NCBI RefSeq assembly: GCF_000337035.1
Contig: NZ_AOJL01000036.1
Coordinates: 7,574 to 71,573 of the forward strand
DNA length: 64,000 nucleotides
From: Halorubrum coriense DSM 10284
GTDB lineage: Archaea; Halobacteriota; Halobacteria; Halobacteriales; Haloferacaceae
Direction of reading: 5' to 3'
Shown here: positions 8,117 through 11,520 of the stretch, piece after piece
How the letters are laid out: each line of letters opens with the position of its first letter
Numbering within the stretch: the stretch's first letter is position 1
Program-made: the position numbers and the translations under genes
The notes under the pieces: model-generated
Told to the model about the DNA's origin: nothing
The model's database searches: none
What the model saw: only the letters and a program-made list of their open reading frames with translations

Positions 8117-9338
<1,222 letters not shown>

Positions 9339-9433
9339 TGGCCGCCTCCCCGACCGGAACGCCCCCCGAGCGACCGCGCTCGCGGTCGCCGACGGCGACC
9401 GATCGCGGGCCGGCTCCGGACTCCCGACAGGGA

Positions 9434-9439
9434 TTTATA
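9434..9439 (+). promoter_or_regulatory. TATA box for the ilvB leader transcript
   Basis: TTTATA, in the context GGGATTTATACCCC, is centred 28 bases before the ATG at 9465. This is the best TATA element in the 376-bp leuA-ilvB gap and predicts a leaderless start for the short leader peptide and a roughly 250-base 5' leader on the ilvB mRNA. Confidence 0.6.
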
Positions 9440-9464
9440 CCCCGGATACGTTGCTTCGAGCGAG

Positions 9465-9539
9465 ATGCGACGGCACACCACGCTCGCGGAACGCGCCGCC
9501 GTTCCCGGAGCCGTCGCGCCGATCATCGTAGGGGTATAA
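9465..9539 (+). CDS. candidate ilv leader peptide, 24 aa, rich in Val/Ile at its end
   Basis: A short leaderless frame begins 28 bases after a strong TATA box and ends in TAA 175 bases before ilvB. It starts MRRHTTLAER, and residues 11-24 read AAVPGAVAPIIVGV. Six of the last twelve residues are Val or Ile, the amino acids made by the enzyme encoded next. Both closing Val codons are GTA, which is scarce in the surrounding G/C-ending genes. The stop codon lies in the loop of a perfect 7-bp hairpin (9528-9547). The arrangement recalls bacterial ilv leader peptides that sense charged tRNA by ribosome stalling. Function is inferred; the frame, composition and hairpin are directly visible. Confidence 0.5.
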   Translation: MRRHTTLAERAAVPGAVAPIIVGV

Positions 9540-9547
9540 CCCCCTAC
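9528..9547 (+). promoter_or_regulatory. hairpin over the leader-peptide stop codon
   Basis: GTAGGGG (9528-9534) and CCCCTAC (9541-9547) are perfect reverse complements around the six-base loop TATAAC, which contains the TAA stop of the leader frame. A pyrimidine-rich stretch with two short T runs (9548-9562) follows. A ribosome finishing the leader would melt the hairpin; one stalled at the preceding Ile/Val codons would sit on its 5' arm. It could serve as an attenuator or a pause site. Confidence 0.5.
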
Positions 9548-9714
9548 ACTACCCCTTCTTCACCGACGCGACGCACCGCCGAACGCCGGCGGCCGAGCCG
9601 TTCTCGCCCCGCGCAACCGCGATCACCGCGGGCGCGGCGCGGCCTCGTCCGTCCGGCGCTCGCAGCGACCGACACGACAACCCGCCAGATGCCACACCGC
9701 ACACCACCACGACA

Positions 9715-11520
9715 ATGAGCGACACAGCAGCACAGCCGCGATCCGACGGAGACGAGTCGGCCGACTCGTCGACCGCGACCGACGATCCGACCGACCCCGA
9801 CGAGAACCAGACCGCGGGACCCGTCTCGACCGGGGCCGAGTCGGTCGTCGCCGCCCTCGAAGCCGCGGGCGCGAAGACCGCCTTCGGCGTTCAGGGCGGC
9901 GCGATCATGCCCGTCTACGACGCGCTGTACGACTCGTCGATCCGGCACGTGACGATGGCCCACGAGCAGGGCGCGGCACACGCCGCCGACGCGTACGGCG
10001 TCGTCGCCGGCGAGCCGGGGCTCTGTATGGCCACTTCCGGACCGGGCGCGACCAACCTCGTCACGGGCATCGCCGACGCCGACATGGACTCGGACGCGAT
10101 GCTGGCGCTCACCGGGCAGGTCCCCACGGAGTTCGTCGGGAACGACGCGTTCCAGGAGACCGACACGGTCGGCGTCACGCGCCCCATCACGAAGCACAAC
10201 TACTTCGCCGGCGGAGCCGACACCGTCGGCGACACGGTCGGCGAGGCGTTCGAGCTGTCGCGGGCCGGACGGCCCGGGCCGACGCTGGTCGACCTCCCGA
10301 AGGACGTCACGCAGGACGAGACCGACCGGACGCCCGGCCCGGCGACGCCGCCGGCGGGGACCGACCCGGACCCGAACGCCGACCCGGAGGCGGTCGAGGA
10401 GGCGGCGCGCGCCATCGAGGCCGCCGAGCGCCCCGTCTGTCTGTTCGGCGGCGGCGTCATCAAGGCCGACGCGAGCGCCGAGGCGCGGACCTTCGCGCGG
10501 AGCTACGGCATCCCGGTGACGACGACGATGCCGGGGATCGGCTCGTTCCCCGAGGACGACGACCTCTGTCTGTCGTGGGGCGGCATGCACGGCACCGGCT
10601 ACGCGAACCTGGCGATCACGCACACCGACTGTCTGATCGCGGTCGGCACGCGGTTCGACGACCGCCTCACGGGCGGCATCGACACGTTCGCGCCCGAGGC
10701 CGAGGTGATCCACGTCGACATCGACCCCGCGGAGATCAGCAAGAACGTCCACGCCGACTACCCGCTCGTCGGCGACGCCGGACGCGTCTTGGACCAGCTG
10801 ACCGCCGCGGTCCGCGACGCGCCCGACGCCGAGGCGTGGCGCGACCGCTGTGAGGAGTGGAAGGAGACCTACCCGATGACGTACGCGACCCCGGACGACG
10901 AGCCGCTGAAACCCCAGTTCGTCGTCGAGGCGTTCGACGAGGCGACGGACGACGACACCGTCGTCACCACGGGCGTCGGCCAACACCAGATGTGGGCCTC
11001 GCAGTTCTGGACGTACACGGAGCCCCGAACGTGGGTCTCCTCGCACGGGCTCGGCACGATGGGGTACGGCGTGCCGGCCGCGGTCGGCGCGCGCGTCGCG
11101 GCCGACACGATGGGCGAGGAGGACCGCGACGTGGTGTGCTTCGACGGGGACGGCTCCTTCCTGATGACGATGCAGGAGCTGTCGGTCGCGGTCCGCGAGG
11201 AGTTGGACATCACGATCGCCGTGCTCAACAACGAGTACATCGGGATGGTCAGACAGTGGCAGGACGCGTTCTACGAGGGCCGACACATGGCCTCCGACTA
11301 CACGTGGATGCCCGAGTTCGACAAGCTCGCGGAGGCGTTCGGCGCGCTGGGGCTGCGGGTCGACGACTACGACGAGGTCGCGCCCGCGGTCGAGGAGGCG
11401 CTGGAGTACGAGGGCCCCGCCGTGATCGACTTCCACGTCGACCCCGAGGAGAACGTCCTGCCGATGGTGCCGAGCGGCGGCGCGAACGGGAAGTTCGCGG
11501 CCGCGGAGGACCAGCTATGA
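9715..11520 (+). CDS. ilvB: acetolactate synthase large subunit (IlvB)
   Basis: A 601-residue ThDP/FAD-dependent catalytic subunit that makes 2-acetolactate (valine/leucine) or 2-aceto-2-hydroxybutyrate (isoleucine). The catalytic Glu is Glu84 in AHEQGAAHAADAY. The central FAD/Rossmann domain contains CLFGGGVIKADA, and the C-terminal ThDP motif starts at GDG (about residue 477) and ends with the Asn pair near residue 505 (VLNNEYIGMVRQWQ). Residues 1-36 form an acidic low-complexity extension outside the catalytic fold. The stop overlaps the ilvN start (ATGA). Upstream lies the leader-peptide region. Confidence 0.95.
   Translation: MSDTAAQPRSDGDESADSSTATDDPTDPDENQTAGPVSTGAESVVAALEAAGAKTAFGVQGGAIMPVYDALYDSSIRHVTMAHEQGAAHAADAYGVVAGEPGLCMATSGPGATNLVTGIADADMDSDAMLALTGQVPTEFVGNDAFQETDTVGVTRPITKHNYFAGGADTVGDTVGEAFELSRAGRPGPTLVDLPKDVTQDETDRTPGPATPPAGTDPDPNADPEAVEEAARAIEAAERPVCLFGGGVIKADASAEARTFARSYGIPVTTTMPGIGSFPEDDDLCLSWGGMHGTGYANLAITHTDCLIAVGTRFDDRLTGGIDTFAPEAEVIHVDIDPAEISKNVHADYPLVGDAGRVLDQLTAAVRDAPDAEAWRDRCEEWKETYPMTYATPDDEPLKPQFVVEAFDEATDDDTVVTTGVGQHQMWASQFWTYTEPRTWVSSHGLGTMGYGVPAAVGARVAADTMGEEDRDVVCFDGDGSFLMTMQELSVAVREELDITIAVLNNEYIGMVRQWQDAFYEGRHMASDYTWMPEFDKLAEAFGALGLRVDDYDEVAPAVEEALEYEGPAVIDFHVDPEENVLPMVPSGGANGKFAAAEDQL

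Follow-up and report, generated by a model that had tools for sequence, protein, structure and literature searches.

Bacteria provide the textbook example of amino-acid sensing by a ribosome stalled on a leader peptide, a mechanism that requires the ribosome to follow RNA polymerase. For archaea, we know of little direct evidence for such coupling of transcription and translation. Coupling has been reported in H. volcanii (PMC8576121). The closest described systems are the bacterial ilv attenuators, namely ilvL and ivbL of E. coli and the uORF or ilvB-II motif of Corynebacterium ilvBNC (PMC10272879, PMC11857589), in which a short ORF precedes ilvB, branched-chain codons stand at its end, and an RNA hairpin adjoins them. 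The haloarchaeal locus described here shares these traits, as well as the match between codons and gene function. No published case of an archaeal leader-peptide attenuator was found in the open-access literature. Comparison of upstream regions suggests that salt-loving archaea probably sense amino-acid shortage via a stalling ribosome.

Leader ORF and putative sensing codons upstream of ilvB

In the window, a 64,000-nucleotide stretch of Halorubrum coriense DSM 10284 DNA, the leader adjoins leuA on its upstream side and the ilvB-ilvN-ilvC-leuC-leuD-leuB cluster on its downstream side. The first gene of this cluster, ilvB (9715-11520, forward strand), encodes the 601-aa large subunit of acetolactate synthase, and its start at 9715 agrees with the sequence-only reading, which had acetolactate synthase come next. 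The leader ORF (MRRHTTLAERAAVPGAVAPIIVGV, then a stop; 9465-9539, forward strand) has 24 codons and opens with an ATG at 9465, as that reading had proposed, and the six Val/Ile that it had counted among the last twelve residues are present. GTA, described as uncommon around the leader, makes up 0.8% of the Val codons of six neighbouring genes and stands in the leader at 9528-9530 and 9534-9536. In the same six genes, ATT accounts for 1.3% of the Ile codons.

The DNA upstream of ilvB was sampled from 80 named haloarchaeal genomes and from 69 loci spread over ten families, which gave 148 loci with upstream sequence. The motif is present in 146 of them, and an ATG-initiated short ORF that ends at GTAGGG with a nearby stop was found in 143, from ten haloarchaeal families; since the ilvB loci are related, these counts are not independent events. 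The exceptions are two leaders with a GTG start (L145 and L172), one that reads VVVGAA and whose start is not pinned (L137), one degenerate leader (L169), and one locus that lacks the leader (L122). The leader was not found in any of 20 regions upstream of ilvB that came from outside Halobacteria, in other families of the phylum. The 143 ORFs range from 16 to 62 codons and have a conserved end, Ile-Val(GTA)-Gly-Ala/Val, followed by TAG (95 loci), TAA (26) or TGA (22). In 134 loci, a single ATG unambiguously has the best TATA spacing, and it is in frame with the motif in every case (134/134).

An alignment of ilvB upstream regions had been named beforehand as a comparison that could overturn the leader-peptide reading; the frame, the stop, the Ile/Val codons and the hairpin turned out to be kept across the class. 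With the same ORF end and hairpin at 143 of the 148 loci, the leader and hairpin of the window exceed chance by this comparison, and their frame, stop, codon and hairpin features taken jointly are hard to explain without translation. It is very likely that the leader ORF is genuinely translated and acts in cis as a regulatory element of some kind.

The putative sensing codons of the window are ATC ATC GTA GGG GTA (Ile Ile Val Gly Val; 9522-9536, forward strand). An attenuator is expected to have a short leader ORF before an amino-acid gene and, near its hairpin, a cluster of codons for the pathway's own amino acids. The ORF is present as described above, and the cluster was also found: GTA GGG is fixed in the 143 leaders, which places Val just before the hairpin in 143/143, and the codon 5' of GTA is ATT in 102 leaders, ATC in 40 and GTA in one, i.e., Ile in 142/143. 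The codon 3' of GGG encodes Ala in 102 leaders and Val in 39 (141/143), and every third base is used. The share of Ile, Leu and Val rises from approximately 10% of residues early in the leader to approximately 50% and then to 100% at the hairpin, and ATT, GTA and GTT, codons of about 1% genomic usage, are strongly over-represented just before it. GTA is invariant even though its stem pairs are broken in 25-48% of the loci, which indicates selection on the codon itself, independent of the stem.

These data bear on whether the peptide itself could act as an arrest peptide. In that case, the nascent Ile-Val-Gly-Ala/Val, perhaps together with free valine or another metabolite, would halt the ribosome at the stop in a TnaC-like manner. 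The end of the peptide is indeed far more conserved than the remainder, and the residue after Gly is only Ala or Val with a free third base, both of which would suit such an arrest. However, selection is seen on rare codons and not on residues alone, and the residue before Val depends on the gene, being Ile at ilvB but one of Phe, Arg and Val at valS. Conserved tunnel residues would mark an arrest peptide; here, conservation is confined to the last four residues, with GTA held constant at the codon level, and the upstream residues are loose, unlike those of TnaC-type arrest peptides. We consider an arrest peptide improbable.

Hairpin, promoter and downstream parts

The hairpin GTAGGGG-TATAAC-CCCCTAC (9528-9547, forward strand) is perfect over 7 bp and holds the leader stop TAA (9537-9539) in its loop, exactly as first described; its minimum free energy is -12.6 kcal/mol, with a shuffle z of -2.86. 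A GGGG/CCCC stem of 5-11 bp with a loop of 3-9 nt is possible in 143/143 loci. The leader stop lies wholly in the loop in 62 loci and across the loop and 3' arm in 75 (137/143 for the two positions together), and it lies beyond the hairpin in 6. Covariation is limited, with a nearly invariant GGGG/CCCC core and one compensated pair (L167), so the main argument for the hairpin is that it occurs at every locus although the loops vary. A mutually exclusive antiterminator at ilvB was not recognised by eye or in single-strand folds. A known Rfam element was rejected because 9300-9800 gave no Rfam match above chance, and no T-box was recognised there by covariance model.

In Halorubrum, an additional stem spans the leader body: the leader start GCGACGGC (9466-9473) pairs perfectly with GCCGTCGC (9510-9517), just 5' of the Ile codons. 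This stem was not seen in Haloferax.

The perfect inverted repeat occurs as a single copy in the Halorubrum genome, where the remaining matches all require 2 mismatches; a search of the same genome for further copies of the ilvB motif gave no fit except the ilvB site. In Halorubrum, this repeat is a perfect palindrome that contains TATAA, and it could in principle be a DNA operator or an internal promoter (GGGTATAACCCC), to which the ORF would be incidental. Across the class, on the other hand, the spacing of the arms varies from 3 to 9 nt, and the TATAA of the loop is not conserved; only a stop codon is kept there, in all three forms. In addition, the frame is maintained through many length changes, and the outer pairs decay while GTA stays. 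With spacing and loop sequence variable and frame and stop kept, an operator or internal promoter at the palindrome is very improbable and was rejected.

The leader promoter (9425-9439, forward strand) consists of a BRE-like stretch and a TATA box, the latter being the TTTATA at 9434-9439 that had already been noticed in the sequence. In the position profile of the 143 loci, the BRE lies at -40 to -36 and the TATA box at -32 to -27 relative to the leader ATG. An A/T-rich 6-mer (5-6 of 6) occupies the TATA position of the leader ATG in 141/143 loci, versus 5/143 for the ilvB start; no BRE/TATA pair is conserved other than that with the spacing for the leader ATG, and no such signal precedes ilvB. 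This spacing is that expected for a leaderless transcript, which should start at or a few bases from the leader ATG.

Upstream of this promoter, 40 of the 143 ilvB loci have a palindrome, GCAA-N3-TTGC, at one of three fixed distances from the leader ATG (-57, -60 or -66; for example L060, L063 and L069). It was found in none of the control stretches and is absent in Halorubrum. The palindrome is likely an operator for a DNA-binding regulator.

Downstream of the hairpin there is a G-free tract (9545-9564, forward strand) with the pyrimidine run CCCCTTCTTC (9552-9561), a candidate pause or termination site approximately 12 nt past the hairpin core. In the profile of the 143 loci, G is mostly at 1-10% from +1 to +17 after the hairpin, and pyrimidines reach 85-94% from +11 to +16. 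The leader is thus followed by a hairpin and a pyrimidine tract at a fixed distance, yet four or more T in a row are rare near the hairpin. The U-tracts to which archaeal aCPSF1 binds must contain about four U in succession (PMC8716108), so a terminator there would be weak. In H. volcanii, termination occurs at T stretches that end in C, and a hairpin tested in one case terminated transcription with an efficiency of 59% (PMC7237163). A T-rich site further downstream, TTCTC (9601-9605, forward strand), resembles this T-stretch motif (PMC7237163) and is a candidate T-stretch terminator, although the assignment is weak; T4C or TTCTC is similarly placed in many species, with TTTTC at +33 to +45 after the hairpin.

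A second short ORF, MPHRTPPRQ (9689-9718, forward strand), ends in a TGA that overlaps the ATG of ilvB (ATGA). Such a stop-start overlap was found in 112/142 loci, compared to 22.5 expected from shuffling and to 8 and 5 in two control frames. Ile, Leu and Val together form only 2.3% of its residues, whereas this DNA read in its two remaining frames gives 10% and 7%.

This second ORF also bears on a post-transcriptional explanation, in which the leader would still sense charged tRNA while the position of the ribosome would set the folding, cleavage or stability of the mRNA, or reinitiation at the second uORF or ilvB, without premature termination. The frequent overlap and the weak terminator signals both favour it, and strict ATGA stop-start overlaps are known to couple translation in H. 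volcanii (PMC6728339). However, stalling upstream would lower reinitiation downstream, which is the wrong direction for a starvation response, and a pyrimidine tract conserved at a fixed distance from the hairpin fits a polymerase better. Taken together, we regard this explanation as unlikely, though it is the strongest competitor of the attenuator.

Related leaders at synthetase genes and the leuA start

A pattern search located the same element upstream of the valyl-tRNA synthetase gene (valS) in several families. In its strict form, the element has 49 matches in 59 genomes, of which 34 lie before ilvB, 13 before valS, and 2 are due to chance; L363 and L366 were rejected as genuine matches, being a chance match in one coding locus. 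In 16 valS leaders of this type, GTA is preceded by Phe, Arg or Val, and by Ile in 0/16, compared to 142/143 at ilvB. The match between codon and gene function therefore holds at a second gene, valS. By eye, the valS loci of the L307 type have a short ORF, MDDSQLHSRTTYRRRPRRAVRA, whose TGA overlaps the ATG at the valS start, and eleven other valS loci (L293-L303) have leaders of 9-11 codons with GTA GTA CG(T/C), i.e., Val Val Arg, near the end; 7 of these eleven also have a pyrimidine tract (TTTCTC or TTCTC, for example) after the stop. The valS genes of Halorubrum and Haloferax have no leader.

At the second trpS gene, leaders rich in Trp, with WRWW or WRW, were found in four genera. A comparable leader is absent before ileS (20 loci), leuS (11 loci), pheS, the main trpS and trpC. 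These absences argue against the result being a by-product of short ORFs that turn up at any gene, and the lack of a leader at ileS means that the system does not span every obvious gene. The valS and trpS2 relatives, like the pyrimidine tract and the second uORF, go beyond the features listed in the sequence-only reading.

The Trp-cluster leaders on the 5' side of the second tryptophanyl-tRNA synthetase gene (L231-L234) include MNAAPWRWWSPASGADSPAVVVAAA. By eye, most of them have GCTCCC before and GGGAGC after the Trp codons, and an extra downstream TCCC could pair instead. Single folds of the trpS2 leaders did not beat shuffles. In H. volcanii, a 23-aa uORF lies in the mapped 5'-UTR of a trp-tRNA ligase gene (HVO_A0127), according to the uORF table of PMC4983044; this may or may not be the gene that has the Trp-rich leaders. 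On the 5' side of leuS (L372-L382), many loci share ATGGAAAG-N-TATA, located approximately 40-60 nt upstream of the start codon, which may be a common promoter or leader element.

A separate observation concerns the leuA start. In 78/78 haloarchaeal loci, a short frame near this start begins at a TATA-spaced ATG (8117-8188 in the window, MTDITEASSDTPADRVLPGHDSF), and in every case it is offset by one base from the leuA body (...RRIEFFQGTIASN...FDTTLRDGEQ; leuA start region 8159-8167). In 63 of the 78 loci, the leuA frame itself has no ATG, GTG or TTG within 40 codons upstream. Near the leuA start, CGA GTT CTT is invariant. This pattern suggests that, throughout the class, leuA uses either a +1 programmed frameshift or a non-canonical start near CGA GTT CTT; since CTT is rare (1.2% of Leu codons), such a frameshift might answer to leucine.

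A candidate attenuation mechanism and its relation to known systems

Comparison across loci establishes the ORF and its frame, the codon bias, the hairpin, the tract, the second uORF, the promoter, and the Val-only version at valS as sequence features. The conservation of frame, stop, codons and hairpin across the class, together with the codon match at valS, supports the leader-peptide reading originally put forward for ilvB, with stalling, termination and the starvation response as its putative steps. We consider it likely, with some room for doubt, that the element is a ribosome-mediated transcription attenuator that senses charged tRNA-Ile and tRNA-Val, the haloarchaeal counterpart of the bacterial ilv leaders. 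Premature transcription termination is the probable output. What we infer from this pattern is that the leader is translated, that the ribosome stalls on it, that termination is the output, and in which direction the response runs.

In the proposed mechanism, a leaderless transcript would begin at approximately 9462-9465, and a ribosome would translate the 24-codon leader close behind RNA polymerase. Once charged Ile-tRNA and Val-tRNA are available, the ribosome would reach the stop in the hairpin loop and depart; the GGGG/CCCC hairpin would then form with the polymerase on the pyrimidine tract approximately 12 nt on, and pausing or termination would leave a leader RNA of roughly 100 nt. It is known from footprints that the leading edge of a ribosome extends about 12 nt ahead. 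When Ile or Val is scarce, the ribosome would stall on ATY-GTA, and its leading edge would cover the 5' arm (GGGG). Consequently, the hairpin would be blocked and the polymerase would read through, so that the stalled ribosome itself could replace an antiterminator. Finally, ribosomes that terminate on the second uORF, where Ile, Leu and Val are almost absent, would reinitiate and translate ilvB.

The points against an attenuator are the weak terminator signals, the lack of a recognised antiterminator, the six stops beyond the hairpin, the relatedness of the loci, and ileS without a leader. With somewhat less confidence than for attenuation as such, we lean toward a minimal attenuation system of the haloarchaea's own, made up of a leaderless mini-ORF, rare cognate codons, a stop in a single hairpin, an archaeal T-tract terminator and a second uORF poor in branched-chain amino acids, which would control ilvB, valS and the second trpS and would have arisen independently of bacteria. 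If true, an attenuator present throughout this archaeal class would report functionally on coupling, in a way that is testable in Haloferax. It would also point to an independent origin of the mechanism with a eukaryote-like polymerase, and would account for the way in which halophiles adjust branched-chain amino-acid synthesis jointly with valyl-tRNA synthetase.

Among known systems, the uORFs in long 5'-UTRs of H. volcanii, as given in Table 2 of PMC4983044, resemble the present element in being short (15-31 aa); they lie on experimentally mapped transcripts, one of them before a trp-tRNA ligase gene; that table does not include ilvB or valS, and in this context codon logic or attenuation is not proposed. 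The T-box riboswitches of Gram-positive bacteria likewise let tRNA charging control both biosynthesis and aminoacyl-tRNA synthetase genes, but they bind tRNA directly without translation, whereas the haloarchaeal element is a conserved ORF with no Rfam match. Compared to the bacterial ilv leaders, the haloarchaeal leader has an archaeal promoter, a leaderless start, a stop inside one hairpin and rare ATT/GTA codons; no antiterminator or long U-run was found, and a second uORF is probably coupled to ilvB. The likeness is one of design, and no sequence relation is claimed. With TnaC, the leader of the tna operon, the haloarchaeal leader shares the principle that a ribosome at the leader end would hide a stretch of RNA on which termination depends. 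The signal for TnaC is free tryptophan, sensed via the nascent chain; in the haloarchaeal leaders, on the other hand, the codons change with the gene, an indication that tRNA charging is the signal.
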